A DNA stretch of 34,166 nt from a virus: positions 1 through 34,166 of IMG/VR virus record IMGVR_UViG_3300031851_000086; one strand, written 5' to 3'. The notes below the pieces were generated by a model. It saw nothing but the letters and a program-made list of their open reading frames with translations, was not told the DNA's origin and searched no databases. Shown piece by piece: positions 12,101-29,010 of the stretch (position 1 is the first letter of the stretch; every line of letters starts with the position of its first letter). The position numbers and the translations under genes are program-made.

Positions 12101-14851
12101 AGAACCTGGAGTTGTTACTTTCAGTAGTTCACCAGTAGAGAATAGGTTGTCCTTAATATAGAAGGAATATCTAGCAGGGTTATTAATAACACCAGTGAAG
12201 GTGATATTACCAGTTGCATATCTCAGTCTGATAGGAGAAGCACCAGTGCTTGTCTTAATTCTGAAACGGTTGTCGTCAATTCTATCGATATAGAATGTAC
12301 CAGAACTATAGTTGTTCTGGTTCATGTTTTGATCATAGAAGTACCTGATAGTACCACCGTCAGCAATAGACAGAGTTACATTCTGGTTGTTGGGGAATCC
12401 ATGACTCTCTTTATAGAAGGAGTCATTAGTAGAGGTATTTCTCTTAACAAGTGCGATATACTGGTTAGTATAACCATCACTGTTATATGAAGCGAAATAG
12501 CGGTCAAGATATGCACCCCATCCTTCCTGATAGTACCAGAAGAACCAGTCGTTACCTCTAACTCTGACGTAGCTAGGGCTAACGTAATCAGTGTAGAAGT
12601 TGTCTCTATAGTAATAGGTACTACCTAGGTTACTGCCATAACCCTGTACGGTGTATGCTCTGTCCCACTGGTTAGATTCGCCTTGGTCATTGATATAACG
12701 GTTGTTATTATCAGTTAGGAAGTCATAGTTACCATTGAATCTAGAATCAGTTCCGAAAGGAAGAGTCTCATGGTTATATCCATAAGTTCTAGGTCTTGTA
12801 CCTCTGTTATGATAGTATCTGTTGATAAAATAGTAATCTGCGCTGTTATCGCCCATTTCAGGACGTGTTGTGGAGAAGAATACCGTTCGATCCCATCCAG
12901 TACCGCCTAGACCATAGGTGCTGTTAACTGCCTGGAAGTCATGACCAGATTTAGTTCCAGACTGATCCCAATAGAAGGTATAGAAGTATGCGTACCAGTT
13001 ATACCAGTCTTTCTTCTCTCTACGGATGTTATATACAAGACCAAAGTTATGATCACCGAAAGTCCAAGTACCATCATGTGGGTACGATGCTGCAGGATAT
13101 GCATCCTCTAGATTAATAGCACCTTGGTTTAGACGCTGAGACTGGTGTAGTTTGATGGTATCATCATCAACTCTCTCAACATAATAAACCTGCATTCTTC
13201 TCAAACCACCAATAGGTCTGTTGCCTGGGTTTGGATAGTAGAGTAGTGCGTAGTGGTTTTGTAGTTGGTGACCAGTAATCCTGATAGTGTCGGAACTGTA
13301 ATCGACATCATCCTCACCAAATCTCTTGGTGTAAGTACATTCGTAATTGTAGTTGAATGTTTTTGTTCTATCTACTACTACGCCAACAGTTGCTGTTGGA
13401 TCCTCATCAACATATGGTCTTCCATCAGGTGCAGTCGCTGTAGGATTTTGAATTTCAAGAATCTTAGGCGAAACAGTGTTAACAAAGTAGAAGTTGGTGT
13501 TGTCTGCGAAACCATGCTCAGAGACAGTAGTTAGATAAACCTTAGAAGTTGCTTTAGTAACAATAGTGAAGGTTTCTCCCATTCCACCATGAGCATCACA
13601 ATAGTAACTCAAAGGAGATGGAGTAGCTGAATCAATGTAAATTCTTACGTATGCTCCTGCTGTGCCTGGGTTACCGTGTGCATATACAAATGAGGTAAAT
13701 TCCGAACCACCACCATGAGTACCATCTTGCGTAGCTGATAGTCTGAATGGGTGAGTATTAACACTAGGATCAGAAAGATCAAACGTGTAGATAGACTTTC
13801 TAGAAAGTTCTAGAGTAGGTTGCTGTTGAAGATTTCCATCAGATTCAATGAAGTATCTGTTACCACCAGCAGCAACACCACTAGTTCCGTCAAGTGTGTA
13901 TGTAACGCCTGAACCAATTAGATCAATTGCTTCGCCATTTTGGAAGGTGCCTTGAATATCATAGACATCAATGGTTGCGCCAGAAATCTTACCAATAACA
14001 CCAGATCCACCAGCAGCACCATTAACAGTTGCACCAAGAAACCATTCATTTTGATCAATTGTTGTTGTTGCTGTTAGGACTGTAATTGCTTTTACAGTAA
14101 CAGGTAGATTATAGAGATCGGATACAATACCAATCGACTGGTCTAGGGAGATTTGAGAACCTTGGAAGAACTTACCTGGAATAATCGAGGTATAAGTACC
14201 TTGCAGTTCTCTGGTAGTTGGTTGGTTTGCCCTTGCCTTATACGTAAAGGTAGTTACAGTTGGAACTGCCTGAATAATATAAGTACCTTCTGCAGTAATT
14301 TCTGCAAGACCTGTAACAGTAATGGGAACACCACTTGTTAGGTTATGGTCAAAACTTGTAGTAACAGTAATAAGTTCTGAACCAGCAACTGCTTCTACCT
14401 TAGAAATGAAGGGGATGGTAGTATCAGAGGTAGACGCATAGAACGACGGAATGTTGTTGATCGTCTGAATGGTCTCCCATTTAGATGCCTGAGGTCCGTA
14501 CTCAAAGTCGGTATCAATCAGGTTTTCTGGGTTAGAGACTCTGAACTTAGATACAGCGTCAACAAAAGTTTCCGATGGTTCAAATTTTACCGAATCTTCC
14601 TCTTCAAAAATTTGAAGCGCATCCGTATCACTCATTGACGAAGTGTCATGAAGTAGAGTGATTGTAGTTTCATCTGCAACACCATCATAACTGAATGTAC
14701 CAGTCTTGGTACTATCAGCAAAGTTGTAGATGATAACGTTATCTGTTGTGTTTGTAATCATCAACAGACGGCGCTGGTGGTGATTACCTTTTAGTTTGAC
14801 CGTTTTTGCCGAAGCATCAAACGTAAAGTCAAAGAGCAAATGTTTTGCCAT
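9128..14851 (-). CDS. very large virion/fibre protein with cupredoxin-like domain
   Basis: A 1907-residue structural protein. The N-terminus (MAKHLLFDFTFDASAKTVKL) and the stretch DTDFEYGPQASKWETIQTIN with NNIPSFY after it (about 115-140) are typical of a large marine cyanomyovirus tail/fibre family. Modules in order: N-terminal attachment part (1-150); beta modules with repeated 'HNLTSG' type segments (150-340); a cupredoxin-like domain (340-432); more beta modules; a Tyr/Trp-rich region (610-800); further repeats; and a conserved C-terminal part (GAGKIRFGFKDSHGHVKYFH, NLPARYEIENGD, then REIINRMQLALDSVGILTTH). The shared N- and C-termini with variable middle suggest a distal fibre or whisker that contacts the host. 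ATG with AGGGGAA nine bases upstream. No signal peptide or membrane segment. Confidence 0.85.
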   Translation of the reverse strand: MAKHLLFDFTFDASAKTVKLKGNHHQRRLLMITNTTDNVIIYNFADSTKTGTFSYDGVADETTITLLHDTSSMSDTDALQIFEEEDSVKFEPSETFVDAVSKFRVSNPENLIDTDFEYGPQASKWETIQTINNIPSFYASTSDTTIPFISKVEAVAGSELITVTTSFDHNLTSGVPITVTGLAEITAEGTYIIQAVPTVTTFTYKARANQPTTRELQGTYTSIIPGKFFQGSQISLDQSIGIVSDLYNLPVTVKAITVLTATTTIDQNEWFLGATVNGAAGGSGVIGKISGATIDVYDIQGTFQNGEAIDLIGSGVTYTLDGTSGVAAGGNRYFIESDGNLQQQPTLELSRKSIYTFDLSDPSVNTHPFRLSATQDGTHGGGSEFTSFVYAHGNPGTAGAYVRIYIDSATPSPLSYYCDAHGGMGETFTIVTKATSKVYLTTVSEHGFADNTNFYFVNTVSPKILEIQNPTATAPDGRPYVDEDPTATVGVVVDRTKTFNYNYECTYTKRFGEDDVDYSSDTIRITGHQLQNHYALLYYPNPGNRPIGGLRRMQVYYVERVDDDTIKLHQSQRLNQGAINLEDAYPAASYPHDGTWTFGDHNFGLVYNIRREKKDWYNWYAYFYTFYWDQSGTKSGHDFQAVNSTYGLGGTGWDRTVFFSTTRPEMGDNSADYYFINRYYHNRGTRPRTYGYNHETLPFGTDSRFNGNYDFLTDNNNRYINDQGESNQWDRAYTVQGYGSNLGSTYYYRDNFYTDYVSPSYVRVRGNDWFFWYYQEGWGAYLDRYFASYNSDGYTNQYIALVKRNTSTNDSFYKESHGFPNNQNVTLSIADGGTIRYFYDQNMNQNNYSSGTFYIDRIDDNRFRIKTSTGASPIRLRYATGNITFTGVINNPARYSFYIKDNLFSTGELLKVTTPGSVPSGFVNGNSYYVIVIDGDRFQLATTSANAGSGTEIEFTGQGSGITAFENTTADFGTVDGSYTTTRAISENELEVTIPFKIAPTVKQFDASATNVDLGNNCININNHFYSTGTRIIYSNNGGSDIGGLTNNTDYYAVLIDNNNFQIAPSLQDALDNTNIITISGVSSGIQEFISANLSGEVTGTGTIEVSTGSRRVEGTNAAFQRFFKIGDIIKVVNTTGGTPGVLESRRVTAITDDDLLLVDQAFSFAQSGTNYLIPSYIYVRPDGFFLHRPFDGGMEIGTSKSPNSRISRQTRKYFRYQSGKGIQTSLAINFIPQIPILKINYVATGAQRVETTASGTAGNSNITITSSASLVVGQLVLGSGTATNCLVKETRIKSIVDATTVELTNPVETTFAGGTVEFKQKITATAQTSKPHQLTTALKIKVINTDVTQFNVEGPVETVIDDFKFTYLLLEEPTATSGGGFPTLAVLSWTDCDIRCGMFDDQNGFFFEFDGDTLNCVRRSSVQQVPGRVAVAKDSHVVVGSDTNFTSQLNPGDNVVIRGMTYKVVKVTNNTQLTIQPSYRGVTNSDVIITKTVDTKVPQTQWNIDKGDGNGKSGYVLDLSKIQMCYMDYSWYGAGKIRFGFKDSHGHVKYFHQFKHNNKLTESYFRSGNLPARYEIENGDLPTYTGTLFHWGTSVIMDGMFQDDEAYLFTASGNSLKYTNSSGTSAVTASNSTITEAYRSYWSREYFIRIPFPTGDSSTLTVNTLIFEASAANGYFQSGKSINTRTYTDSSYHYVYVQYLQGTTRYFPRNYYSAINSALGSPAVSSGTTMNIGSAATNQVVLIPLNIPLVSIRLAPSVDSSITGALGEREIINRMQLALDSVGILTTHETEISLILNPSLSTDTFENVDDPSLCQLVKHSSSDTVSGGSVILSFRAAGAGNGQTSSTTFDLSRISALGNSILGGDGIYPNGPDLLTVTANIVDSGGVSSANPYQISARITWSESQA
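12452..13024 (-). other. Tyr/Trp-rich segment of the 1907-residue protein
   Basis: Residues about 610-800. By my count about 29 Tyr and 8 Trp occur in some 190 residues, with runs such as WYNWYAYFYTFYWDQ and FFWYYQEGWG and many Asn, Gly and Asp between them. This composition differs sharply from the Thr/Ser/Val-rich flanks. Confidence 0.75.
13556..13834 (-). other. cupredoxin-like domain with type-1 copper ligands
   Basis: Residues 340-432 read as strand SRKSIYTFDLSDPSVNTHPF, a DGTHGGG loop, a YVRIYID strand and the closing loop YYCDAHGGMGETF. His367, Cys418, His421 and Met424 reproduce the H...C-x2-H-x2-M ligand order of blue copper proteins. Similar domains occur in many marine phage structural proteins (from memory); copper binding has not been shown here. 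Confidence 0.75.
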
Positions 14852-14857
14852 TTTCTG

Positions 14858-14950
14858 TTATTCCCCTAGTTTTTGTTTATAGTTACGAATTGTAGTTTTC
14901 AAGTCAGTGCTCACATTGATAATAAATCTCTTGTAAAAAGTCTTGGGTTC
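14858..14950 (-). other. possible +1 frameshift extension of the Mtd-N-like protein
   Basis: Directly after the UGA of the 69-residue gene the +1 frame is open for 30 codons and protein-like: EPKTFYKRFI, then INVSTDLKTTIRNYKQKLGE, ending in TAA at 14858-14860. Shifting at UGG-U-GAA would give a protein of about 99 residues. It fills the whole gap up to the ribosome site of the next gene. A sequencing indel or chance would also explain it. Confidence 0.4.
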
Positions 14951-15158
14951 ACCAACCCATAGCAGCCATCATTCCCATTGAGATGGTGATTTGCTCAACC
15001 ACATAGTCTTGTCTTGCATGAGGAATACCACCAGCTGTGGCTCCATCATGCAACACCAAACTCATTGTGTCGGTATCTACAGTAAGTTCCGCAAGGGCAC
15101 CAGTAAATGTAGATTGTTGTACTGTAGTACCTCTTCTCAGCTGTACCTGTTTGGTCAT
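14949..15158 (-). CDS. stand-alone Mtd N-terminal-domain-like protein
   Basis: A 69-residue protein starting MTKQVQLRRGTTVQQSTFTG and continuing ALAELTVDTDTMSLVLHDGA with TAGGIPHAR. The RRGTT..Q..TFTGA.(G/A)E.TVDTD......HDG.TAGG signature is that of the major-tropism-determinant N-terminal domain, which usually heads phage tail fibres and receptor-binding proteins and forms trimeric beta-prism-like necks. Here nothing follows it in frame except a Met-rich tail (ITISMGMMAAMGW). AGGGG six bases before the ATG and a perfect late promoter TATAAATA at 15187-15194. It lies between the two giant fibre genes and may form a connector between them (inference). Confidence 0.82.
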   Translation of the reverse strand: MTKQVQLRRGTTVQQSTFTGALAELTVDTDTMSLVLHDGATAGGIPHARQDYVVEQITISMGMMAAMGW

Positions 15159-15186: not shown

Positions 15187-15194
15187 TATTTATA
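15187..15194 (-). promoter_or_regulatory. T4 late promoter TATAAATA
   Basis: A perfect T4 late consensus on the minus strand, 28 nt upstream of the Mtd-N-like gene. It occupies the loop of a 6-bp inverted repeat (AGTTTT 15182-15187, AAAACT 15195-15200). Confidence 0.75.
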
Positions 15195-15208: not shown

Positions 15209-18200
15209 TTAAATTATAGTGACGAATGTGAATCCAACTTCAAACTTGCGATACTCGGTAGTAGCATCACCGTCAAGTGTGATATTACCATTTCCAACGT
15301 AAGTAGAATTACCGAATCTGTCTTTGCCGTTTCCACTGAATGTGAATAGAACTGTGCTTTCTGGTTTGTTGGTTGTCTTGGATTCTGCTGTTCCGCCTGC
15401 AGTAAATAGTGAACCAGATCCATTGAAGTGTGGAATAAATCTGACTTCTGTTGCACCACCAGAAATTGTATATTGTGCTGTATCTCCAACATATCTTTCG
15501 GTGTGCTTCTCTTCTGATGTTCCAGATAGAGTTGCTGAACCTGTTCCTTGATAACCCTTGCGGATAAACGATTCGTTTGCTCCTCCAGAGAATCTTGCGA
15601 TGAGTGTATCTGCATCTGCAAACGCAACTGCTTCTGCTGCTCCGCCGACTGCGAATAGAGAACCAGAACCAACATGTGTTTGTAGTGTTCTTTCTTCTGT
15701 GGATCCAGTAATCGAAATAGATCCAGATCCAACAAAGTCTCTTGTTCTTGTAGTTTGAGCTGTACCAGAGAATGTAAAGAGAACTGTACTTTCTGGTTGA
15801 TTTGTGGTCTTCGATTCTGCTGCTCCACCAGCAGTAAACATAGAACCAGAACCAACGAAGATTCCAGTAAACCTGGAAACAGATTCGCCAGAGAGTTGAA
15901 TCTGTAAAGTCTCGTCGTCTGCGAATGTAACTTTCTCGTCGATCGCCTGACCAGAAGCGGTGAGGATAGAACCAGATCCAGAGTATTCGCGCTTGACTGC
16001 ACTTGTACTTGCTCCAGAGAATGTGAAGAGACCAAATCCATCTGGACTGAAAGTAATCTTCTCTTCTGTAAATACGGTTGCAGCACCACCTTCGAGGAAG
16101 TCCATGACTCCCGATCCAGTGTAATGATCCAGTTGTTCTTCGACTGAATCTCCACTGAAGGTGTATTGTGCAGTATCTTCTGGAGGATTGGCGATGAAGG
16201 ACTCTGTACTGAATCCACCAATTCCATAGAGACCGATTGCTGTCTCGACGATCGTAGCACTCTCCGCTGCACCACTGAATGTGGATATAGATCCAGATCC
16301 AATTTTGAAGCGGATGACTCTGATATTTGTTGCTTTACCAGATAGTGTTGCAGTACCAGAACCAACATAAGATTCTGTATGTCTTTCTACCGATGTACCA
16401 GCAGCGGTGAAGAGAACTGTGCTTTCTGGTGGGTTGGTTGTGATAGACTCTGAAGAACCAGATGCTGTGAATATAGATCCAGATCCAACAAAGTCTCTTG
16501 CTCTAGTAGTATCACCATCACCAGTGAGGTCAATGGAACCACTACCGACCCAGTTAGGAATGAACTTAACGTTAGTTGCTTCACCACTGTAAGTAAACTG
16601 AGCAAAGTCACCGATATAACGTTCGGTGTGTTTCTCGGATACTCTTGTACCAGATAGGGTTGTGGATCCAGATCCAACTTCTCCTTTAGGAGTGAAAGAT
16701 TCTGCCTTGCTTCCACCAAAGACAAGTAGATAAGTGTCTTCTGGGGGATTGAATGTAACTCTTTCTGCACCACCACCAACTGCGAAGAGGTTGCCTCCAA
16801 CAGAAGGTTGGTAATGAACAGTGAATACAACATCACCGCTGATGGTGATAGTTCCGCCTTCCTCGTCTGCTTGTGCAACTCTCTCGGAGCATGTACCAAG
16901 CAATCCAGGATGAGAACCAGAACCAATAAATGGTTTGGTAACTGCTGCTGTACCAATGCTTCCAGCAACTGTAAAGATAACAGTGCTTTCTGGTAGATTT
17001 GTGGTCTTGGATTCAGCAGCACCATTTGAGGTGAATAGTGTACCAGTACCAGTCCAATGATACTGTTGGCTAACAGTACCTTCACCTGTAACAGTGTATA
17101 TCGGAGCGTCTGCAAGATATGCTTCGGTATGTTTCTCGGAAACTCTTGTTCCAGAGAATCCACCATAAGAACCAGATCCGATTTCTGTTGCTGGAGTAAA
17201 GGATTCGTCTTTGCTTCCTGAGAACCTGTATAGTCCTGTGGATTCTGGTAGATCGACAGTCTTGCTTTCTGCAACACCACTGAGTAGATTGATAGTACCA
17301 GAACCAGGATATCTGACTCTGTAGATAAACTCGACTGCACCACTGAAGGTGTATAGTGTAGTTGGTTCTTCTGCAAAGGTAACTTTCTCGACCAGAGCCT
17401 GACCAGAGAATGTAGATAGAGTTCCGCCAGCAAATACTTCTCTGACCGTAGCAGACTCGGATCCAGTTCCAGATGCAGTAAGCAGAATTGTGCTTTCTGG
17501 TGGATTGCTGGTCTTCGATTCTGCTGCTCCACTAGCAGAGAATAGTGATCCAGATCCAACGTAACTGACGATGTAGACGAATTCAACTTGACCACTGATC
17601 GTGTATAGTCCAGTTGCTTCTTCTGCAACTCCAACTCTTTCGATAAGAGCTTGACCCGAGAAGGTGGATAGAGTTCCAGATCCAATTTCTGTCGCGGGAG
17701 TAAAGGATTCTGCTTTGCTTCCACCAACAACGAAGATGACCGTACTTTCTGGTGGGTTGCTGGTCTTGGATTCGGCAGCTCCACTTGCTGTGAATATGGA
17801 ACCAGATCCGACTTCGGCGTTGCTTTCTCTTTCTGTAGCAGATCCAGATAGAGTATACTGAGCAGCATCTCCAAGGTAACCTTGTGCAACTCTCTCGACT
17901 GAAGTACCAGAAAGTGTGATAGGTGTCGCAGTACCGACATAACATTCGGTGTGCTTCTCGATACCAACACCAGATGCGGTAAACAGAACTGTACTTTCTG
18001 GTGGATTGCTGGTCTTGGATTCTGCTGCACCGTTTGCTGTAAACAGTGATCCAGATCCAACCCATCTGTCTGCTTGTCTTTCGACTGCAGTACCAGATGT
18101 AGTAAATAGACCTGTAAATTCTTCTCTGACCGCAACTGCTTCTGCAGCACCACTAGCAGAGAATAGTGATCCAGATCCAACGTAATCGTTAGTGATTCTG

Positions 18201-21200
18201 AGTACAGTTGATCCAGATGTAGAGAATAGACCAGTTGCTTCTTCAGCGACTGTAACTTTCTCGATGAGAGACTGTCCAGAGAAAGTGGACAGACTTCCAC
18301 CAGCAAATACTTCTCTGACTGTAACGGAGTCTGTAACAGTACCAGCTGCAGTAAATATAACTGTGCTTTCTGGTAGATTTGTAGTCTTGGATTCTGACGC
18401 GCCACCAAAGAGAGGTAGATTTCCAGAACCAACAAACTTGAATGCAAACCTGTAGGTGTTACCAATGAATGCAGCTGATGTGAATAGAGTATAAGTACCA
18501 AATCCATCAACATTTCCGAATCTAGCAAGGCGTTCAACAGCAACACCAGAGAAGGATGCAGAACCAGATCCAATGTATCTTCTTTCAAACGGAGTCTCAG
18601 CAACACCACTAATGGTGTAAGTACCATGTGCAGGATCAATTAGATGTTCTAGAGTTCCATCTTCGCCATAATCAACTTCGCCAGTTGTTAGTGGGTTGGA
18701 TACCTGACCTTGATCTTCGTAGGATGTAACAGGAGCATCGACAGAACCATAATCTTCTGGTGTGAGTATGGTAGGAAGATCTCTGTCGTATACCCAAGTT
18801 CTGGATTCTGCAACACCACTGAGTGCATGGAGTGTTCCAGATCCAGCATATGCACGAGATCTGATTGTGTCTGCAACACCACTGATTGCAAAGAGTCCAG
18901 TGGTATCGTCTGTTTGAGCGACAACTTCGACAAGTCCACCAGCAGTGAAGAGTGAACCAGCACCAACGTAAGAGGAGTTAGCAACAACAACTGTTGCACC
19001 ACTGATTGTGTATGTTCCTTCAGCAGGAGTGATGGTGGTATTGAGAATACTGCCGTTGTTTTCTTCGCCTGCAGTAGTTGGTAGAATGATACTACCGTTA
19101 TCGTCTGCAGTTGTTGTTGCAGCAGAGATGATACCGTTATCAACCTGAGTAAATGGTTGTAGAAGTTCATCGCTATAATCATAAGTTCTAGATTCTGCAC
19201 AACCATTAAGTGTGAATAGAGATCCAGAACCAACGTAATCAACAACTGCTCTGAATACAGTAGATCCAGATACACTGAAGAGACCAAACGTATCGTCTGT
19301 TTGAGCGACAACTTCGACAAGACCGCCAACTGCGAATAGAGAACCACTGGAGAATTCTCTAACAACATTTTTCTCTGTTGCTGCATCACCAAAGGTGTAA
19401 GTTCCTGTAGCAGCATTGACGGTAGAAGTATGGATAACTGTACCGTTGTTTTGAACACCTGCAGTGAGTGGATTGGTAACGCTACCATAATCAACGATGG
19501 ATCCAGTAGCAGTAATGAGACCCTGATCGTCTGTAGTGAATGTGACGACTGTGGTATCGCTGTAATCCCATGTTGCAGATTCTGCAGCACCACCAATAAC
19601 GGGGAGGGTACCAAAGGAATCCCACTTCCAACAGAATCTATATGTGTTACCAATGCCTGCTTGAGAAGTGGATAGAGTAAAGAGTCCTGTTCCAGTTTCA
19701 ACAACAGCAACTGCTTCCGCTGCTCCACCGACTGCAAACAATCCACCAGAACCAACCATTGCGAAGGTAGGCTCGTACTTAACATCGCCTGATTGTTCTT
19801 GTGTCGCTTCGTCTCCAACCTGAGGAATAAGTCCTGTTTCTGGAGTAACATAATCTGGGTTGACGAATAGCAAGAGGTCGATATCCTCTTGAGTAAGTGG
19901 TGCTCTTACGAGACCAAGTTGAATCGTTCCTGTTGTTGCTCTGAGAGTTCTATTGGGTAGCGCAACCAGACCATTGTTTTCTTCGCCAGCAGTTACAGGA
20001 CTGGATATAGAACCATCATCTGCATATGCTGTAACTGTATCGGTAACAAGACCATGATCTGTAGATGTGTATACAAGAACTGTGTCGTCGTTATAATCAA
20101 AGGCGACTTTCTCGACACAACCACCAACACTGAATAGAGATCCAGAACCAACATAATCGTTGGATTTGGAGAATGTAGTTGTACCAAGAAGAGTGAATAG
20201 ATAAGTCGATTCGTAATCAACAACAGCAACTTCGACTGCACCCGATGCTGTGAATAGTGAACCAGATCCAACAAAGTCTTTCGTTCTTGGAGTCTGAGCG
20301 ACACCAGTAAGATCGATTGTTCCGTATGGATGTGTTTTAGCAGTGAGAATAACTGTGCCGTTATTCTGTTCACCTGCAGTGAGAGGATCTGTGACGAGAC
20401 CGTTGTCTTCCAGAACCGTTGTGGTAGCGGAGATAGTACCGTTGTCTTCGGTATTGAATACAACAACAGAAGATAGGTTGTAATCCCAGGTAACTTTCTC
20501 GACTCCACCAACAACGGTGAAGAGAGATCCAGAACCAACAAAGTCTCTCGATCTTGTAGGAACTGCTGCACCAACAAAATCGTATAGTGTAGTTGCTTCT
20601 TCTGCAAAGGTAACTTTCTCGACCAGAGCCTGACCAGAGAATGTGTTGAGCGTGCCTCCACCAATCTCGCGTGCAATATTCTTCTCTACAGAATCGCCAC
20701 TTACAACATAAGATCCTGTTAGTGGATATACTGTAGATGTATTGACGACTGTTCCATAACTGAACTCGCCATCGGTTGTTGTCTCAGTGACTGAACCATC
20801 ATCAAAGAAGTCAGCAATTGTAGATGGTGTACCAGTAACATTGCCGTAGTCGGCAGATGTGAATACAACAATGGAGGATTCATTGTAATCCCATGTTGCA
20901 GATTCAGCAGCACCATTAAGAGTGAATATTGAACCACTGCCGATGAAAGGTCTTGTTCTACTGAATGCTGTAGATCCAGATACATTGAATAGACCAATAG
21001 TAGATTCAACAACTGCAACTGCTTCGACTGCTCCGCCGACTGCGAATAGAGAACCAGAACCAGTCTGAGCAAATGCAGGTTCATACTTAACATCACCTGA
21101 TTGTTCTTGTGTTGCTTCATCACCAACCTGAGGAATAATACCTGTCTCAGGAGTAACATAATCTGGGTTGACGAACAGTAGGAGATCAATGTCTTCCTGA

Positions 21201-24200
21201 GTAAGTGGTGCTCTCCGATATCCATATGTGAATACAGGTCCAGTTCCACCATCGTAAGGTTGAACTGTTTGATTGTATATAATTGTATTGTAATCTTCCT
21301 CTCCCGCGCTGAGAGGTTCTGCAACCAGACCATTTGTAAAGTGATCTTTGGAAGGATTTGTGGAAGCAGTAATGCTACCGTAATCATCAGTAGTGAAGAC
21401 AACATCTGCACCATAATCGAAGGTGACTTTCTCGACTCCACCACCAACAGAGAAGAGAGAACCTGTAACTGGAGGTGCATTCCAGCAGAATCTGTAAGTA
21501 TTACCAATACCTGCGGCAGAGGTAAAGAGTCTGAAGAGACCTGTAAATTCTTCATCAACACCAACTGCTTCTGCAGCACCAGATGCTGAGAATAGTGAAC
21601 CACTGCCGATGAAAGGTCTTGCTCTTGCAGTATCACCATCACCAGTAAGGTCAATGAGACCAGTAGCAGCATTAACGGTAGAAGTATGGATAACTGTGCC
21701 GTTGTTTTGAACACCCGATGTAAGTTGATTAGTAATACTGCCGTAATCAACGATGGATCCAGTAGCAGTAATGAGACCTTGATCATCAGTGCTAAACGTG
21801 ACGATAGTAGTATCGTTGTAATCAAAGGCGACTTTCTCGACGCCACCATTGAAGGTGAATAGAGATCCAGATCCTACCCAATCATTAATAACTCGGAATA
21901 CACTTGATCCAGATACACTGAATAGACCCGTTGATTCTTCGGCAACTCCTGCCTTCTCGATGAGAGCTTGACCAGAGAATGTAGAGATAGATCCAGATCC
22001 AACCCATCTGTCTGCTTGTCTTTCGACTGCAAAACCACTAGTTGTAAGAGTTCCTGTAAGAGCATTAACTGTAGAGGTATGAATAACTGTACCGTTATTC
22101 TGCTGACCTGCTGTAGTTGGATTAGTGATGCTTCCGTAGTCAACAATAGACCCAGTAGCAGTGATGAGACCTTGATCGTCTGTAGTAAACGTAACGACTG
22201 TGGTATCGTTGTAATCAAACGTTGCAGATTCGACTCCACCGTTGAAGGTGAATAGAGATCCAGATCCAACCCAATCAGCAGTTGCTCTAAGTACGCTAGA
22301 TCCAGATACACTGAATAGACCAGTAGATTCTTCTGCGACTCCTGCTTTCTCGATGAGAGCCTGTCCAGAGAATGTGGAGATAGATCCAGAACCAATGTAT
22401 CTGTCTGTTTGAGAATCTGTTGCTGAACCACCAGTTGCAAGAGTTCCTGTAGCAGAGTTAACTGTAGAGGTATGAATAACTGTGCCGTTATTTTGGATAC
22501 CTGCAGTGATTGGATTTGTAATAAATCCGTTGTTAGCAGTTGTTTGAACTGCGTTGGTAATAAGACCGTTGTTTGCAGAAGTAAAGACAACAACTGTACT
22601 ATCGTTATAATCCCAAGTTGCAGATTCAGCAGCACCGTTGACGGCAAATAGTCCTCCTGTAACTGGAGGTGCATTCCAACAGAATCTATAAGTATTACCA
22701 ATACCTGCTGCTGATGTGGATAGCTGGAATAGACCAGTGGATTCTTCTGCGACCCCAACAACTTCCGCTGCACCACCAACTGCGAATAGAGAACCAGAAC
22801 CAATCTGACCAAAGATTGGAATGTATTGAACATCTGCAGATTCTTCCTGAGTTTGTTCAACACCAACAACAGGAACAAGTCCCGTCTCAGGAGTAACATA
22901 ATCTGGGTTGATGAATAGTTTTTCGTCGATCTCTGCTTGAGTCCAAGATGGTCTTCTGAGAGAGAAGGTGACTCCACCTGTAGTACCTTCTACAGTTTGA
23001 CTGTAGATGATATTTCCTAGATTTTCTATTCCTGCTGTTAGTGGATCTGTAATAGATCCATTGTCTTCTGTTGCTGTAACTGCACTGTTAACAAGACCAT
23101 TATCAACAGGTGTAGCATAAGTAACAATGGATGATAGGTTGTAGTCAAAGGCGACTCTCTCAACTCCTCCGCCCATGGAGAAGAGAGATCCATTAAAGAC
23201 TTCACTGAATATAGATTTCTCAACACCAGTACCAGATATGGTAGTAAGAAGTGTACTATCAGGATCATCGAATGTTGCTGCTTCGACTGCACCACTAAAC
23301 GCGAATAGAGAACCACCAAAGACTTCTCTAACAATATTTTTCTCGGTAGATGTACTGCCGAATGTGTAAGTTCCAGTAACAGCGTTGACGGTAGAAGTAT
23401 GAATAACTGTACCGTGATTAGCAATACCCGATGTAAGTGGGTTAGTGATGCTACCGTGGTCAACGATAGATCCGCTAGCAGTAATGAGACCTTGATCGTC
23501 TGTAGTGAATGTGACGACAGTTGTCTCGTTATAATCCCAAGTTGCAGACTCTGCACAACCATTAAGTGTGAATAGAGATCCAGAACCAACCCAATCATTA
23601 GTAACTCGGAATACACTCGATCCAGATGTAGAGAATAGACCAGTGGATTCTTCTGCAACTCCTGCAATTTCAACAGCTCCACCAACTGCGAATAGAGAAC
23701 CACCAAAGACTTCTCTAACAATATTTTTCTCTGTCGCTGTATCACCAAAGGTGTAAGATCCTGTAGCAGCATTAACTGTCGAGGTATGAATAACTGTGCC
23801 GTTATTTTGGATACCTGATGTAAGTGGATTGGTAACGCTACCATGATCAACGATAGATCCACTAGCAGTAATCAGACCCTGATCGTCAGTAGTAAACGTA
23901 ACAACTGTAGTGTCGTTATAGTCAAACGTTGCAGATTCTGAACAACCATTTAGAGTGAACAGAGATCCAGAAGCAACGTAATCTGTTACTGCACTGAATG
24001 TTGTAGATCCAGATACACTGAATAGACCAACAGTAGATTCCGCAACAACAGATACTTCTGCTGCTCCACCGACTGCAAACAATCCACCAGATCCAGTCTG
24101 TCCAAAGATTGGAATATATGAAACATTTCCAGATTCTTCTTGTGTCTGCTCAGCACCAACAACAGGAACGAGACCTGTCTCAGGAGTAACATATCCTGAG

Positions 24201-26281
24201 TTGATGAATAGTTTTTCATCAATTTGTTCCTGTGTCCAAAGGGATCTGGTAAGACTCCAAGTGAGTCCACCAGTAGTACCATATACATCTTGAGTGAATA
24301 CAATATGGTCAAAGTCAACAGCACCCTGAGGAATACCTTCGGTTGTAGAACCAGAGTCCTCATTTGTAGAAGCAGAATTTGTAACGAGATCTCTATCTTC
24401 AGTCGTGAAGAGATTGATAGAAGATAGATTGTAATCAAAGGTTGCTCTCTCAACTCCACCACCAACAGTGAATAGAGAACCAGAGAACACTTCGCGGAAG
24501 ATAGACTTCTCAACACCAGCACCAGAGAAGGATGCTAGAGCAGTATCTTCTGGCGGGTTAGATCCAACTGCTTCTGCGACACCACTAGCAGAGAATAGTG
24601 ATCCAGATGCAATGAAAGGTCTAACACGAGCATATGTGTTAAACTCAGCGCCAGGACCGTTAGTAAGCGTTGCAGTTCCGAATGGAGTTGCTGGTCCAAG
24701 ATGATTAATGTAGTACCAGTTCTCTTCTCCACCTGACTGGATCTCGGTAATAAGACCGATATCTTCGGTTGAAGTTGTAGTGAACCCTGCACCATAATCT
24801 TCTGTAGAGTATGGTAGAGTAGAAGAAATATTGTAGTGGAATGTCGCCGCTTCGACAAGACCGCCAAATCCAAATAGAGATCCAGATCCTGTCCAATGAT
24901 CTAACTTAAGAACAGGGAAGGCATTGCCTCCGTAACTGTATAGAGTTGTAAATTCTGGTAGATCGACAGTCTTGCTCTCTGCTGCTCCACTGAATGCAAA
25001 CAGAGAACCAGAACCTGCTTGTCCAAATGTTGGTTTGTATCTCTCAGATACTTCACCACGGAATCCAACTATGGTTCCAGTTCCAACCCACTCATATCTG
25101 TTGATGGGTAGATCAGCAACTCCAGTAGCGAGAGTTCTAGTCTGATAACGTAGACCAGTTTCTTTACGTTCGCCTAAAGTAAACTTACCTCTAGCTGCTT
25201 CTACTGTTTGTGTATCATGAACAGTTCTGCGTCTCTGTCCAAATACTATAGAACCGTAGTCGTCCTCTCCCTCGCTGAGAGGTTCTGAAATTTCTCCGTT
25301 ATCTGGGGTTGGGAAGTATGGATCTTGACCAAGAATAAATCTTTGATTCTGTAGATAACCCTCATGTAGAGGTTCTAACGTTCCGTAGTTATCATCAGAT
25401 AGTAGTAGATCAGAATCAATACTGTAATCTACAATATGCTTATCAACACCAGAACCTGATAGTGTAGTGCTACCAGATCCAATCCAGTCAAAACTTGCTC
25501 TGAATACACTCGATCCAGATGTAGAGAATAGTGCTATATCTTCTACTGGTTGTGCGACCGTTGCTTCAGCAACTCCACTAGCACTGAATAGTGATCCACT
25601 AGCAGTATATATTCTAGATTGAGCATAGGTATTACCCTGTGCATTTGGACCATTTGTGAGTGGTAGTATACCAGACGCACCTCTTACATTAGTTGTGTTG
25701 TAAGTGAATCCGAAATCATCTATTCCTTGATCGAGAGGATCAATGATAAGTCCATATACATCAAAAGAGGACGTTGTAGCAAATCCTGCTCCAAAGTCCT
25801 CTGTATTGAATGGGACGAACAGAGTATCGCTGTAATGACCAGCAACTCTCTCCTCCTTAGTACCAGCAACGGTAAGTCCACCAGAACCGACCCAGAACGC
25901 AGAACTGCGCTCCATACCACCGCCCATCTCAAATAGAGTTCCTGAACCAACCCAGATACGCTTGAGAGACGGCGCAGAGGCACCATACGCGCTTATATTA
26001 CCTGATCCGATATAAGTTGTCCTAGCGAACGCTTCGTTCGTTGTAGAGGACATAGACGCTACAGCGCCCATAGGTGTAATTGTTTCGTTTGCAATTTCTC
26101 CTCTATCGCCATCTATGTCGCTTTCTGCTAATAGAGGAGTTGCTGCTAAAGTATTTGTTGGTGATTCTGTAAGGTCTCCGTAATCTACGGTAACTGGAGA
26201 CGCAGAAATTTGACCTAAATTTTCTGTTTCAAAATATAGGTCTAAATCGTTATTCGTATCAGCGTATACGTAGTTCGCCAT
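15209..26281 (-). CDS. giant repeat protein, 3690 aa, putative fibre/adhesin
   Basis: One uninterrupted frame of 3690 codons. The N-terminus (MANYVYADTNNDLDLYFETE, up to about residue 95) is unique. The rest is built from a short beta unit, aromatic-(V/I)-GSGSLF(T/A)x(S/G)G-(A/G)xE, about 65 copies by eye, alternating with a partner unit such as ESTVLFTxSG. In residues about 95-2560 these are interrupted by long super-repeats: a D(Y/H/N)G-rich stretch (TTDDQGLITASGSIVDHGSI), a VNPDYVTPETG...EATQEQSGDVKYEP block (four copies) and a NTYRFCWNAPPVTG block. Residues 2560-3690 hold only short units. No enzymatic motif, signal peptide or membrane segment. Position among fibre genes suggests a very long virion fibre or decoration. 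The ATG lacks a Shine-Dalgarno and lies 8 nt from the T-run of a terminator. Confidence 0.85.
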   Translation of the reverse strand: MANYVYADTNNDLDLYFETENLGQISASPVTVDYGDLTESPTNTLAATPLLAESDIDGDRGEIANETITPMGAVASMSSTTNEAFARTTYIGSGNISAYGASAPSLKRIWVGSGTLFEMGGGMERSSAFWVGSGGLTVAGTKEERVAGHYSDTLFVPFNTEDFGAGFATTSSFDVYGLIIDPLDQGIDDFGFTYNTTNVRGASGILPLTNGPNAQGNTYAQSRIYTASGSLFSASGVAEATVAQPVEDIALFSTSGSSVFRASFDWIGSGSTTLSGSGVDKHIVDYSIDSDLLLSDDNYGTLEPLHEGYLQNQRFILGQDPYFPTPDNGEISEPLSEGEDDYGSIVFGQRRRTVHDTQTVEAARGKFTLGERKETGLRYQTRTLATGVADLPINRYEWVGTGTIVGFRGEVSERYKPTFGQAGSGSLFAFSGAAESKTVDLPEFTTLYSYGGNAFPVLKLDHWTGSGSLFGFGGLVEAATFHYNISSTLPYSTEDYGAGFTTTSTEDIGLITEIQSGGEENWYYINHLGPATPFGTATLTNGPGAEFNTYARVRPFIASGSLFSASGVAEAVGSNPPEDTALASFSGAGVEKSIFREVFSGSLFTVGGGVERATFDYNLSSINLFTTEDRDLVTNSASTNEDSGSTTEGIPQGAVDFDHIVFTQDVYGTTGGLTWSLTRSLWTQEQIDEKLFINSGYVTPETGLVPVVGAEQTQEESGNVSYIPIFGQTGSGGLFAVGGAAEVSVVAESTVGLFSVSGSTTFSAVTDYVASGSLFTLNGCSESATFDYNDTTVVTFTTDDQGLITASGSIVDHGSVTNPLTSGIQNNGTVIHTSTVNAATGSYTFGDTATEKNIVREVFGGSLFAVGGAVEIAGVAEESTGLFSTSGSSVFRVTNDWVGSGSLFTLNGCAESATWDYNETTVVTFTTDDQGLITASGSIVDHGSITNPLTSGIANHGTVIHTSTVNAVTGTYTFGSTSTEKNIVREVFGGSLFAFSGAVEAATFDDPDSTLLTTISGTGVEKSIFSEVFNGSLFSMGGGVERVAFDYNLSSIVTYATPVDNGLVNSAVTATEDNGSITDPLTAGIENLGNIIYSQTVEGTTGGVTFSLRRPSWTQAEIDEKLFINPDYVTPETGLVPVVGVEQTQEESADVQYIPIFGQIGSGSLFAVGGAAEVVGVAEESTGLFQLSTSAAGIGNTYRFCWNAPPVTGGLFAVNGAAESATWDYNDSTVVVFTSANNGLITNAVQTTANNGFITNPITAGIQNNGTVIHTSTVNSATGTLATGGSATDSQTDRYIGSGSISTFSGQALIEKAGVAEESTGLFSVSGSSVLRATADWVGSGSLFTFNGGVESATFDYNDTTVVTFTTDDQGLITATGSIVDYGSITNPTTAGQQNNGTVIHTSTVNALTGTLTTSGFAVERQADRWVGSGSISTFSGQALIEKAGVAEESTGLFSVSGSSVFRVINDWVGSGSLFTFNGGVEKVAFDYNDTTIVTFSTDDQGLITATGSIVDYGSITNQLTSGVQNNGTVIHTSTVNAATGLIDLTGDGDTARARPFIGSGSLFSASGAAEAVGVDEEFTGLFRLFTSAAGIGNTYRFCWNAPPVTGSLFSVGGGVEKVTFDYGADVVFTTDDYGSITASTNPSKDHFTNGLVAEPLSAGEEDYNTIIYNQTVQPYDGGTGPVFTYGYRRAPLTQEDIDLLLFVNPDYVTPETGIIPQVGDEATQEQSGDVKYEPAFAQTGSGSLFAVGGAVEAVAVVESTIGLFNVSGSTAFSRTRPFIGSGSIFTLNGAAESATWDYNESSIVVFTSADYGNVTGTPSTIADFFDDGSVTETTTDGEFSYGTVVNTSTVYPLTGSYVVSGDSVEKNIAREIGGGTLNTFSGQALVEKVTFAEEATTLYDFVGAAVPTRSRDFVGSGSLFTVVGGVEKVTWDYNLSSVVVFNTEDNGTISATTTVLEDNGLVTDPLTAGEQNNGTVILTAKTHPYGTIDLTGVAQTPRTKDFVGSGSLFTASGAVEVAVVDYESTYLFTLLGTTTFSKSNDYVGSGSLFSVGGCVEKVAFDYNDDTVLVYTSTDHGLVTDTVTAYADDGSISSPVTAGEENNGLVALPNRTLRATTGTIQLGLVRAPLTQEDIDLLLFVNPDYVTPETGLIPQVGDEATQEQSGDVKYEPTFAMVGSGGLFAVGGAAEAVAVVETGTGLFTLSTSQAGIGNTYRFCWKWDSFGTLPVIGGAAESATWDYSDTTVVTFTTDDQGLITATGSIVDYGSVTNPLTAGVQNNGTVIHTSTVNAATGTYTFGDAATEKNVVREFSSGSLFAVGGLVEVVAQTDDTFGLFSVSGSTVFRAVVDYVGSGSLFTLNGCAESRTYDYSDELLQPFTQVDNGIISAATTTADDNGSIILPTTAGEENNGSILNTTITPAEGTYTISGATVVVANSSYVGAGSLFTAGGLVEVVAQTDDTTGLFAISGVADTIRSRAYAGSGTLHALSGVAESRTWVYDRDLPTILTPEDYGSVDAPVTSYEDQGQVSNPLTTGEVDYGEDGTLEHLIDPAHGTYTISGVAETPFERRYIGSGSASFSGVAVERLARFGNVDGFGTYTLFTSAAFIGNTYRFAFKFVGSGNLPLFGGASESKTTNLPESTVIFTAAGTVTDSVTVREVFAGGSLSTFSGQSLIEKVTVAEEATGLFSTSGSTVLRITNDYVGSGSLFSASGAAEAVAVREEFTGLFTTSGTAVERQADRWVGSGSLFTANGAAESKTSNPPESTVLFTASGVGIEKHTECYVGTATPITLSGTSVERVAQGYLGDAAQYTLSGSATERESNAEVGSGSIFTASGAAESKTSNPPESTVIFVVGGSKAESFTPATEIGSGTLSTFSGQALIERVGVAEEATGLYTISGQVEFVYIVSYVGSGSLFSASGAAESKTSNPPESTILLTASGTGSESATVREVFAGGTLSTFSGQALVEKVTFAEEPTTLYTFSGAVEFIYRVRYPGSGTINLLSGVAESKTVDLPESTGLYRFSGSKDESFTPATEIGSGSYGGFSGTRVSEKHTEAYLADAPIYTVTGEGTVSQQYHWTGTGTLFTSNGAAESKTTNLPESTVIFTVAGSIGTAAVTKPFIGSGSHPGLLGTCSERVAQADEEGGTITISGDVVFTVHYQPSVGGNLFAVGGGAERVTFNPPEDTYLLVFGGSKAESFTPKGEVGSGSTTLSGTRVSEKHTERYIGDFAQFTYSGEATNVKFIPNWVGSGSIDLTGDGDTTRARDFVGSGSIFTASGSSESITTNPPESTVLFTAAGTSVERHTESYVGSGTATLSGKATNIRVIRFKIGSGSISTFSGAAESATIVETAIGLYGIGGFSTESFIANPPEDTAQYTFSGDSVEEQLDHYTGSGVMDFLEGGAATVFTEEKITFSPDGFGLFTFSGASTSAVKREYSGSGSILTASGQAIDEKVTFADDETLQIQLSGESVSRFTGIFVGSGSMFTAGGAAESKTTNQPESTVLFTFSGTAQTTRTRDFVGSGSISITGSTEERTLQTHVGSGSLFAVGGAAEAVAFADADTLIARFSGGANESFIRKGYQGTGSATLSGTSEEKHTERYVGDTAQYTISGGATEVRFIPHFNGSGSLFTAGGTAESKTTNKPESTVLFTFSGNGKDRFGNSTYVGNGNITLDGDATTEYRKFEVGFTFVTII
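18600..25990 (-). repeat. DNA-level super-repeats in the giant gene
   Basis: Blocks of several hundred bases recur with high identity. Examples are the segment encoding GNTYRFCWNAPPVTG near 21467-21520 and again near 22654-22705; the segment encoding TTDDQGLITA(S/T)GSIVD near 19528, 21774, 22166, 23487 and 23876; and a stretch of about 40 identical bases encoding the SLFTLNGCAES unit near 19195 and 23551. Boundaries are approximate. Confidence 0.8.
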
Positions 26282-26288
26282 ACAGTAT

Positions 26289-26321
26289 CAAAAAAATAGG
26301 GGGACCATAAAGAAGTCCCCC
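26289..26321 (-). terminator. intrinsic terminator upstream of the giant gene
   Basis: On the minus strand GGGGGAC (26321-26315), a 9-nt loop, GTCCCCC (26305-26299), then TA and seven T (26296-26290). It follows the 344-residue gene and ends 8 nt before the giant ATG. A near-late element CATAAATC (26326-26333) lies just upstream. Confidence 0.85.
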
Positions 26322-26353
26322 AAGCGATTTATGATATAAAGTAGAGTCAGATA

Positions 26354-27388
26354 TCAGTCGAGGCTGATGTTCAAGGTAACTTTGATTTGGTCACCGTTGT
26401 TCTGAATCGGGTATGGACCATTGGTGAATCTTTCAGCGAACATGATGCTGCTATAAAGAGTCAGGTTACCAGTGCCGTTAAGCGCGGGTGTGGTCTCAAA
26501 TGTTGATCCTGAAGGAACATCGAAGATTGTGTAGGTGTTCTCTGTAGATGTGGTGTTAGAAGTACCACGAGCGATGTAGATAACGTCGCCTTTCTGTAGA
26601 CCGTGTGCAGAGGTTGTAGTAACTGTGGTGTAATTCAGGTTGATCGTAGGATCGGTTGCTGACTGAATGTTATCAGTTAGAAGAACTGCTACGTTAGATG
26701 CATCACAGAGGTAGATTCTGCGAGTTGCGCGGTCGATACCACCAACAAACACACCAGATGCTGCAAGTGCTGCAGTTGTTGCTGCACTGACTTCCATACC
26801 AAGCGTAACATTATCCATGATGGATGCAGTGTTAGGCAGGGTGATGTAATCTTGTCCAATAACGCCAATACATGGAGAACCAGAACTACCTTTGTTGATA
26901 GTAGCGGCAGCAGCACCAGAAGCAGCATCAACAACGCCATGAATTAGGATAGGCATGTTGTTTGCTCTTACAATGTAATAACCGTAGATATTACCAGCAG
27001 CACCAGAGAAGGTAAATGTCTGCTCAGGATAAGTAGCAGTGGTTACAACGTTTGCAGAGGAGTCTTGGTTGATTTTCCAGCGAGCACCGTTTAGAAGAAT
27101 ACCATACGCATCTGTATAATCGTAGCGAGCTTCGGTACGATTGTTTGTTGCGACATCATATCCTGTGGTAGATGCAGTACCATATGTGTTAGTGTTACCA
27201 TTGGCATATGGTTCGTAATATGCTGTGGCGGAAGGTACATCGCCTTCAGCGGGGGTAGTGTCGCTGCTGTACAGCTTAAGAATTAGATCTCTAGGAGCAT
27301 TGTCCTCGCGATCTAGAACATGATTGTTGTTATTGATTAGATAACGAAGCGACTCAAGTTCGCCAATATTAGGTACTAGCAGTGCCAT
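26354..27388 (-). CDS. virion structural protein, fibre-associated family
   Basis: A 344-residue protein. The N-terminus MALLVPNIGELESLRYLINN, with DLILKLYSSDTTPAEGD after it, and the central TFTFSGAAGNIYGYYIVRAN followed near the C-terminus by MFAERFTNGPYPIQNNGDQI and KVTLNISLD make up a phage structural family common in marine myoviruses, usually listed as virion structural or tail-fibre-like protein. The central strand pair is separated from the C-terminal signature by about 150 residues of Ala/Thr/Ser-rich beta sequence, an apparent insertion. Preceded by a perfect TATAAATA late promoter 40 nt upstream and followed by a strong terminator, so it may be a single-gene late transcript. Role in fibre attachment is inferred from position. 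Confidence 0.75.
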   Translation of the reverse strand: MALLVPNIGELESLRYLINNNNHVLDREDNAPRDLILKLYSSDTTPAEGDVPSATAYYEPYANGNTNTYGTASTTGYDVATNNRTEARYDYTDAYGILLNGARWKINQDSSANVVTTATYPEQTFTFSGAAGNIYGYYIVRANNMPILIHGVVDAASGAAAATINKGSSGSPCIGVIGQDYITLPNTASIMDNVTLGMEVSAATTAALAASGVFVGGIDRATRRIYLCDASNVAVLLTDNIQSATDPTINLNYTTVTTTSAHGLQKGDVIYIARGTSNTTSTENTYTIFDVPSGSTFETTPALNGTGNLTLYSSIMFAERFTNGPYPIQNNGDQIKVTLNISLD

Positions 27389-27427: not shown

Positions 27428-27435
27428 TATTTATA
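27428..27435 (-). promoter_or_regulatory. T4 late promoter TATAAATA
   Basis: Perfect late consensus on the minus strand, 39 nt before the ATG of the 344-residue gene. A second element, GATAAATA, at 27454-27461 overlaps the stop codon of the preceding gene. Confidence 0.75.
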
Positions 27436-27459: not shown

Positions 27460-28170
27460 TCATAACAAGACTTTCAAGCCAAGCATGAATCGTCTAATGC
27501 TTGTTACGCCTTGTACTTCAAATCTGAGAATATCCCCTGCAACCAGAGTCTTATCCCATACGGTTAAATTATCGTTGTTTCCCTTTATAGTTCCGCTCGC
27601 GATAGTAGGATAGTCCGTACTAACAATTGAAGCAAATCCACTTGGATAATCATTATAACTGCACTTCTCAATATCTAATCTGAGAAATCCATTTACATCA
27701 CCAACGATGGTCCATGTATCAATTTGTCCTGTAACATCTAAGGTTAGTTCACCTTTGATTCCAGCAGTCATATCTTGAGATCCACTACTATGAACGAAAT
27801 TAATTGTCCTAGTTAGATCTGCAGTTGTTGCCAAAGCAACAACGAAAACTTTATCTCCTACAGAAGGAGGGGTAGTAAAAGCAATTTGACTATTGCTGAC
27901 TGAGTAATCAACACCTGGGTGTTGTACTAAACCATTCACAGAAACAATAATTTGACTAGAGTCAGTTGGAACGTATATCTCGTTGTTATTTGTTAAATTA
28001 AATACAGTTTGAGAATTGTTGAACTGACTAGTAAAGTCATCCAGAACAATGTTGTTATTCTGGAGATATTTTGCAGGTATATCATAAGTAACTCCAACCG
28101 CATACTTTTTCTGCGCTGGAGTAATTACATTGTAATTGGAATTCTGTACGCTAACGTTGTACGTAGGCAT
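27460..28170 (-). CDS. virion structural protein, hypothetical
   Basis: A 236-residue, largely beta protein rich in Asn, Val and Thr. After a short polar N-terminus it has the motif NNNEIYVPTDSSQIIVSVNG followed by LVQHPGVDYSVSNSQIAF and TTPPSVGDKVFVVAL (about 62-115), a pattern seen in phage tail-fibre and baseplate-linked proteins where a 'VxVNGVLQxPGxDYxVsgxxIxFxxxPxxGDxV' domain recurs. The second half has an SGSQDMTAGIKGELTLDVTG segment and a C-terminal strand (IRRFMLGLKVLL). Its ATG overlaps the stop of the preceding 111-residue gene by 1 nt. Likely part of the fibre/baseplate periphery; exact role unknown. Confidence 0.75.
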   Translation of the reverse strand: MPTYNVSVQNSNYNVITPAQKKYAVGVTYDIPAKYLQNNNIVLDDFTSQFNNSQTVFNLTNNNEIYVPTDSSQIIVSVNGLVQHPGVDYSVSNSQIAFTTPPSVGDKVFVVALATTADLTRTINFVHSSGSQDMTAGIKGELTLDVTGQIDTWTIVGDVNGFLRLDIEKCSYNDYPSGFASIVSTDYPTIASGTIKGNNDNLTVWDKTLVAGDILRFEVQGVTSIRRFMLGLKVLL

Positions 28171-28505
28171 CAGGATACTCCTGGTGTTACTTCAATTATA
28201 CCTTCAATAACTCTTGATTTAGTTCCTGACGGAGCAGTCAAAAGAATATCATAGACATATCTTCGGGCTTCTAGTCCTGCTGTTACTGTGTTTGTTAATG
28301 AGATTGATAAAGCACCATTATATCTATCTGGGTAACCAACAACAAAGTCGGTTGCAGTAGATGCTGAATAACTTCTTCTCAACTTAGCAACAGCAGTATA
28401 TCCAGTCAGATTTAGCGGGGTAGTGTTTACTTCGTTCTGAATATTGAACGTCGCAGAGAAATCTGTACCCTTCTCACAAATCAAATTAATTGGTATTGCC
28501 GCCAT
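28170..28505 (-). CDS. small virion protein with Ig-like/BppU-N-like fold
   Basis: A 111-residue protein, all beta: ICEKGTDFSATFNIQNEVNT, LNLTGYTAVAKLRRSYSAST, ALSISLTNTVTAGLEARRYV, YDILLTAPSGTKSRVIEGII. The pattern 'G-x-D(F/W)xxxF...DLTGYTaxxqlR....axxxfxv......l.LsLtxxxTaxLpxGxYxYDl' is that of the small baseplate upper-protein N-terminal/phage Ig-like domain that connects fibres to baseplates. It is the first gene of a late unit whose promoter lies inside the terminator at 28513-28542. No good Shine-Dalgarno; GAGGGG is about 15 nt from the ATG. Confidence 0.75.
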   Translation of the reverse strand: MAAIPINLICEKGTDFSATFNIQNEVNTTPLNLTGYTAVAKLRRSYSASTATDFVVGYPDRYNGALSISLTNTVTAGLEARRYVYDILLTAPSGTKSRVIEGIIEVTPGVS

Positions 28506-28572: not shown

Positions 28573-28797
28573 CTACTCTGCAGATACTTCTACTTCAGCA
28601 GTAGATTCTTCTGCTGGGTGTTCGTGATTACCATTTTGCTCATCTAGTAGTCCCAGAGTTTCTAGACCACCTTGCAGTTTGGTGCGGTACTCTTGGAGTC
28701 GTACTAGTTCTTCTCGTACTTTTGCGACTTTTTGATCAGCGTCTTTTAGTTGAGCTTCAAATTCGCCACGAAGTTTTTCAGTGTGATTGCAGGACAT
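28573..28797 (-). CDS. small coiled-coil protein
   Basis: A 74-residue protein: MSCNHTEKLRGEFEAQLKDA, then helical DQKVAKVREELVRLQEYRTK with heptad-like Leu/Val spacing up to about residue 52, and an acidic tail (HPAEESTAEVEVSAE). A Cys-x-His pair sits at the N-terminus. No family recognised. A late element AATAAATA at 28821-28828 lies 24 nt upstream, and a terminator follows, so it can be a separate short late transcript. A structural or scaffold-like helper of the adjacent baseplate proteins is possible. Confidence 0.7.
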   Translation of the reverse strand: MSCNHTEKLRGEFEAQLKDADQKVAKVREELVRLQEYRTKLQGGLETLGLLDEQNGNHEHPAEESTAEVEVSAE

Positions 28798-28803
28798 AAT
28801 TAT

Positions 28804-29010
28804 TCATGAATTGTCTGACCTATTTATTATAGCATGTAGTATCGACTTTAGTTCGGTTATTTCGTCCTTTAAGTTCTTAAGCTCATTATCTTGTAATGAT
28901 TGCCTCAACCTTGCTGTTTTAACCTGCTCAAATGTTTTGGTATCCTTATTGATGATAGCACCAGTAGACGGATCTCTAAACAGTCCGTCCTCTCCTTCTA
29001 CTTTATACAT
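28804..29010 (-). CDS. small conserved cyanophage virion-associated protein
   Basis: A 68-residue protein. The N-terminus MYKVEGEDGLFRDPSTGAII, followed by NKDTKTFEQ, matches a short protein I recall as conserved in T4-like cyanophages (MYxVExxxGLxRDPxTxAIlN). The rest is a coiled coil (QSLQDNELKNLKDEITELKS). Its ATG overlaps the stop of the large upstream gene by 1 nt, so the two are coupled and it may be a chaperone or small baseplate/fibre component. Function not established. Confidence 0.75.
   Translation of the reverse strand: MYKVEGEDGLFRDPSTGAIINKDTKTFEQVKTARLRQSLQDNELKNLKDEITELKSILHAIINRSDNS
28821..28828 (-). promoter_or_regulatory. late promoter element AATAAATA
   Basis: Matches NATAAATA on the minus strand near the 3' end of the 68-residue gene, 24 nt before the ATG of the 74-residue gene. 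Confidence 0.5.

Follow-up and report, generated by a model that had tools for sequence, protein, structure and literature searches.

A 34,166-base IMG/VR fragment (hereafter the window, that is, the whole stretch of DNA analyzed) encodes a giant repeat protein of 3,690 residues. In a marine T4-like cyanophage of the Kyanoviridae type, this protein probably forms the shaft of a tail fiber of exceptional length, with which the virus would reach its host cell. This reading follows from the gene order, the adjoining adaptor genes, and modular changes in length, which together lend good support to the phage fiber proposed in the original prediction. The window itself is a fragment of such a cyanophage. 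It carries a plastocyanin gene (429-752, minus strand; Pfam Copper-bind, E 1.9e-19), and photosystem genes (0/5 in the first contig set) are found on the three largest contigs bearing relatives of the giant in the second set. This combination points to a cyanobacterial host.

Repeat architecture and family of the giant protein

The giant frame runs from an ATG at 26281 to 15209 on the minus strand with no internal stops, exactly the single open frame of 3,690 residues first described, for which no strand had been given. G, S, and T are abundant in its product. Shuffled sequences contain GSGS 0.7 times on average and at most 4 times, whereas the protein contains it 32 times; GSGSLF, absent from the shuffles, occurs 17 times. 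An iterated repeat-unit HMM with the consensus RYIGSGSLFTAGGAAE recovered 53-54 units above the counting threshold of 3 bits, and 81 stretches when weak ones are included, making the earlier figure of about 65 repeats a fair estimate. The same HMM found 0 units in five shuffles and 0-1 per protein in six other proteins of the window. The repeat is thus real, but the idea that it consists of one simple unit does not hold. Autocorrelation peaks lie at 20/21, 42, 84, and 129/131 residues, with long-range peaks at 440 and 571, and the repeat is hierarchical, building from half units of about 20-21 residues to 42, 84, and 129/131, with a DYGSIT block in addition.

Three regions can be distinguished along the minus-strand frame. 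The N-terminal part (residues 1-720; 24122-26281) contains D-type blocks of the form DYGDLT followed by GSG units. Residues 721-2620 (18422-24121) are made of compound modules of about 129-131 residues that combine GSGSLF units with the DYGSIT block, as seen in self-BLAST, in autocorrelation lags of 129, 131, 440, and 571, and in DNA tandem repeats of 387/393 bp, of which the gene holds two arrays that are 80% alike. The second block type within these modules, DDQGLITATGSIVDYGSITNPLTAGVQNNGTVIHT, contains three [D/N]xG[STL][IV] turns. In residues 2621-3690 (15209-18421), GSGSLF and PESTxLFT units alternate with a 42/84-residue period (lags 21, 42, and 84).

The sole family found to cover the giant is PHROG 11522 (E 7.1e-207, 690.9 bits, 22 stretches), which also matches members from S-SSM7, Sf-FS3, and S-SCSM2R. 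Searches of Pfam, NCBIfam, and the PDB gave no credible match to a described repeat family and no enzyme match; Pfam matches to Aspzincin, DUF4330, and MCPVI fell far under cut-offs and were rejected, and the single PDB profile match for a C-terminal alignment (3jx8, E 0.037) is at chance level. The original idea of a new class is right in part only. The family already exists as the unnamed cluster phrog_11522, with neither an assigned function nor a repeat description, and at this locus other cyanomyoviruses usually encode unrelated fiber-like giants of 3,200-3,700 residues. Literature searches on the tail fibers of S-SCSM2R and S-CAM1, or on a rope-like tail fiber, found nothing.

Relatives among isolated phages are the Synechococcus phages S-CAM1, S-CAM3, and S-SCSM2R, to which S-SSM7 and Sf-FS3 were added by locus and PHROG; S-SM1, S-PM2, and Syn9 are absent among the tblastn hits obtained with residues 1428-3690. 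The 2,130-residue S-CAM1 protein shares the family, locus, and C-terminal signature of the window giant, which is 1.7 times longer and has about 53 units versus 19. The family proteins of S-CAM1, S-CAM3, and S-SSM7 bear the accessions AOV58104, AOV59077, and ADO98176, and those of S-CAM3 and S-SSM7 are 2,558 and 1,529 residues long. The family is widespread, two scans of viral contigs having recovered 14 and 60 loci, respectively.

A conserved fiber locus

The giant is encoded beside fiber-attachment proteins, all on the minus strand. At the window end, which cuts it, lies a DUF4815/"virulence-associated" structural protein in a gp10-like baseplate position (29010-34166; C-terminal 1,718 residues). 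It is followed by small proteins of 68 residues (28804-29010), which corresponds by position only to a small T4-GC112-type gene of other cyanophages, and 74 residues (28573-28797). Next comes a 111-residue LtfC/BppU_N-like adaptor (28170-28505; phrog_3304 "L-shaped tail fiber assembly," 1.2e-24), whose Pfam matches to LtfC (0.003) and BppU_N (0.004) are both under cut-off and whose PDB match is 8hqz (E 0.15). A 236-residue fiber-adaptor-type protein (27460-28170; phrog_10330), of which residues 46-112 resemble the tandem N-terminal domains of the capsule (K1) depolymerase 9k4a, and a conserved 344-residue partner (26354-27388; phrog_10467) complete the upstream cassette. Downstream of the giant is a 69-residue Mtd_N-domain protein (14949-15158; PF18454, E 2.5e-13), its DNA conserved in the window and seven relatives, then P0003, a 1,907-residue virion structural or fiber-type protein and possible distal partner (9128-14851; phrog_5838, 1.5e-181). 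The neck and sheath-end genes gp13, gp14, and gp15 bound the locus (2304-5340; T4_neck-protein 1.6e-23, T4-gp15_tss 8e-77, gp13 by position).

The order DUF4815 gene, small gene(s), LtfC-like, 236-residue, 344-residue, giant, and Mtd_N is shared by the window, S-CAM3, S-SSM7, and Sf-FS3. S-CAM1 has the same cassette order, but a gene of the same size takes the place of Mtd_N, and in S-SCSM2R the next large protein starts with Mtd_N-like letters. Across 17 further contigs bearing the giant, the LtfC-like and 236-residue genes are adjacent in 14 and the 344-residue gene is present in 15. In P-HM2 and S-CAM9, which are without the giant, the LtfC-like gene still follows the DUF4815-position gene and precedes fiber-type genes, and in Melnitz-1 it lies among "tail fiber" genes ahead of the neck.

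Since the locus adjoins gp13 and gp14, we considered whether the giant could instead be a collar or whisker (fibritin-like) protein, or a fiber decorating the capsid, which from its place on the neck or head would aid adsorption or assembly. In T4, wac sits directly before gene 13, and the gene after the giant in S-CAM1 carries the annotation "possible hoc." The S-CAM3 counterpart of that gene scores as Mtd_N, and the adaptors beside the giant are of LtfC/BppU_N and Mtd_N types, that is, modules for attachment at the tail tip or to fibers. We regard a neck or head location as unlikely and favor the tail-fiber shaft.

The gap between the 344-residue gene and the giant ATG (26282-26353, minus strand) contains a terminator-like hairpin, GGGGGAC..GTCCCCC with a U tract (26299-26321), 17 nt upstream of the ATG. 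It is also present in L001, L002, L005, L006, L008-L011, L013-L017, and L019, and its stem letters vary among relatives with pairing retained, including in S-CAM1, S-CAM3, and Sf-FS3. No Shine-Dalgarno sequence is visible between hairpin and ATG, and several neighboring genes have one. The hairpin may be either an intrinsic terminator read through by the giant transcript or a brake on low-copy fiber expression. A T4-type late-promoter-like TATAAATA lies in a fitting position ahead of the 344-residue gene (27428-27435, minus strand), and another ahead of the Mtd_N gene (15187-15194, minus strand) is invariant in the window and seven relatives; the count of such sites is not above chance.

Several further features of the region were observed. 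A second terminator-like hairpin (14944-14959) follows the Mtd_N gene, which is shorter than the size cut of the initial ORF list. The 344-residue protein spans 333 to 487 residues among relatives, with middle insertions and conserved ends, and fragments of it occur in small ORFs of 131-132 residues (G007:C1:126316-126495 and G006:C1:1083-1256, on the contigs of L053 and L051), about 3-4 kb from a photosystem gene and remote from the fiber locus. P0003 has a cupredoxin-like stretch, HPFRLSATQDGTHGGG...YYCDAHGGMG, recognized by eye around residues 350-430. Between the fiber and neck genes are four ORFs on the opposite strand (5926-8627, plus), of which two weakly match DUF6445 and one a 2OG-Fe(II) oxygenase. 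The gp14 protein (3104-4507, minus) is 467 residues long versus 292 in S-PM2, its extra stretch holding two GSGY..(A/P)P.VT(L/I) repeats, and the sheath stabilizer gp15 (2304-3104, minus) has a dockerin-like calcium-loop motif, TDINQDGQVDAND, close to its C-terminus (Pfam E 0.042).

Module gain and loss, selection, and the C-terminus

Comparison with the relative L005 showed collinear blocks of about 79-87% DNA identity at offsets of 0, 137, 261, 393, 521, and 603 residues. The two proteins thus differ at five points by steps of 137, 124, 132, 128, and 82 residues, approximately one 130-residue module four times and two 42-residue units once. Steps of this size show that length changes by whole modules between close relatives, and recombination between repeats would be the obvious cause. 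Complete family members (n = 11) range from 1,369 to 3,690 residues, and their length correlates with unit number (r = 0.989, from eleven members that share kinship and hence are not eleven independent points).

L005, L008, L010, L014, and L017 all carry an intact copy of the frame; frames disrupted in close relatives, named at the outset as grounds for doubt, were found in none of these five. Its dN/dS against relatives, calculated with our own Nei-Gojobori script, is 0.27-0.36, which indicates that the whole frame is translated and under constraint at the protein level. For the same relatives, dN/dS is 0.06 for the 236-residue gene, 0.08 for the 111-residue gene, 0.10 for the DUF4815-type gene, 0.15-0.17 for the 344-residue gene, 0.23 for P0003, and 0.27-0.33 for the giant. 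In the L014/L017 pair, P0003 reaches 0.41. A climb from baseplate and adaptor genes to fiber genes is as expected for a fiber when one moves from its proximal to its distal components.

The last 12 residues of the giant, KFEVGFTFVTII (15212-15247, minus strand), represent a family signature seen in all complete C-termini examined, which in most members takes the form aromatic-x-P-x-[RF]-x-[FY]-x-x-I-I. Endings include FVTII, YGWII, YVSII, FGTII, QVWII, YVVII, and FTIIV, preceded in most by the x-P-x motif. One list of C-termini had been pre-filtered on such an ending; the other, unfiltered lists held no exception among complete C-termini, the entry for L069 in one of them being a different ORF. 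A variable receptor-binding tip was not found at the C-terminus of this family, where one signature is kept while the repeats vary, and this argues instead for a cap or docking peptide. The conserved end is most likely such a peptide, serving a distal adhesin or chaperone. The receptor-binding tip is probably another protein, and our claim for the giant extends to the shaft only.

Fold, comparison with known fibers, and implications

AlphaFold2, run with family alignments on two segments (residues 1155-1760 and 3190-3690), gave mean pLDDT values of 26.5 and 40.4 and no usable model. Strands spaced about 20 residues apart make up nearly all of the second model, which has no helix and is of low confidence (40.4). 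The beta-solenoid originally suggested is therefore unsupported, both predictions being low in confidence and the PDB giving no sequence match. The trimeric, rod-like, and beta-structured nature of the giant is what we infer from its sequence; low pLDDT would fit an intertwined oligomer and would equally fit poor alignments, and those behind both runs were gappy.

The giant might also be a virion fiber in the form of a single-chain rope, either beads or a monomeric solenoid, in place of an intertwined trimer. The regular strand-turn-strand pattern of 20-21 residues would suit such a chain, as would the strand spacing in the second, low-confidence model. Monomeric solenoids are usually predicted confidently even with shallow alignments, and pLDDT here is just 26-40, a weak point given the gappy alignments; solved phage fibers are, moreover, mostly trimers. 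We consider a single chain improbable and prefer an intertwined shaft.

Roles outside the virion, such as secreted adhesin or infection-stage matrix protein, are very unlikely. Adhesins commonly hold short repetitive units, but inspection by eye revealed neither a signal peptide nor an anchor in the giant, its gene lies within a structural block, and a scan of 84,980 genomes with one pattern found 0 cellular homologues; the secreted adhesin was rejected on gene context. A tape-measure or internal tail protein, which great length, repeats, and a tail gene block might suggest, is scarcely credible and was rejected on composition and repeat type, for the repeats are beta-type and G/S/T-rich, not helical, the low-confidence model lacks helix, dN/dS exceeds that of core genes, fiber adaptors adjoin, and gaining or losing modules (family length 1,369-3,690 residues) would change tail length.

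A close likeness in organization is to the lateral tail fibers of T5 and DT57C (Ltf/LtfA with LtfC), in that a small LtfC-like gene lies just upstream of the giant. In DT57C, LtfC forms the collar, a ring, that holds the lateral tail fibers (PMC10713586), and we propose that the giant is likewise a long fiber held by a small beta-rich adaptor. The resemblance stops there: LtfA has no sequence similarity to the giant, T5-like records are absent among tblastn hits with residues 1428-3690, the N-terminal coiled coil of the lateral fiber is not apparent in the giant, and attachment would be to a myovirus baseplate as opposed to a siphovirus tail tip. BPP-1 Mtd has an N-terminal domain like that encoded downstream of the giant, which differs in being a stand-alone protein of 69 residues without the receptor-binding domain.

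Giant-sized fiber-like proteins also follow the DUF4815-position gene in S-PM2 (3,338 residues), S-WAM2 (3,219), and P-HM2 (3,678, likened by size and position), and those of S-PM2 and S-WAM2 likewise precede gp13. GSGSLF units are absent from the S-PM2 and S-WAM2 proteins, and the proteins preceding them differ from those in the window. Large fiber-like proteins of S-PM2, S-WAM2, and S-SCSM2R were considered as homologues and treated as unrelated, BLAST matches being weak and of low identity (composition correction off) with 0 repeat-HMM units. Unrelated proteins of 3.2-3.3 thousand residues in S-PM2 and S-WAM2 suggest that giants are normal and exchangeable at this position. Virions of S-CREM2 contain a long tail fiber detected by 286 unique peptides (PMC10665884) and 4,971 residues long as computed from its coordinates; it is likened to the giant by size, and is located elsewhere in its genome.

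In the mechanism we propose, the 111-residue LtfC/BppU_N-like protein would dock onto the baseplate or tail, and the 236- and 344-residue proteins would make up a joint. Three giant chains would then intertwine, as in most phage fibers, to form a beta-structured rod or rope in which each 20-21-residue unit adds one strand-turn-strand element, so that reach would be set by module number. Depending on the fold, this might amount to a reach of some 100-300 nm. The C-terminal peptide would dock a distal adhesin or chaperone, with P0003 or the Mtd_N protein as a candidate for that partner. Tentatively, and with a clearly greater chance of being wrong than right, the giant may represent a new fiber-shaft architecture, namely a length-tunable beta rope with an undescribed 20-21-residue unit, recombination of whole modules, and a C-terminal peptide that docks exchangeable adhesins.

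Such cyanophages influence primary production in the ocean, and the construction of their long fibers is little understood. In the giant family both the repeat and the attachment cassette are defined, and its members form a natural series of lengths (1,369 to 3,690 residues), through which one could test whether module number tunes the length of the fiber, and for what ecological reason. If the shaft is indeed a beta rope with docked, exchangeable adhesins, reach and specificity would evolve separately.
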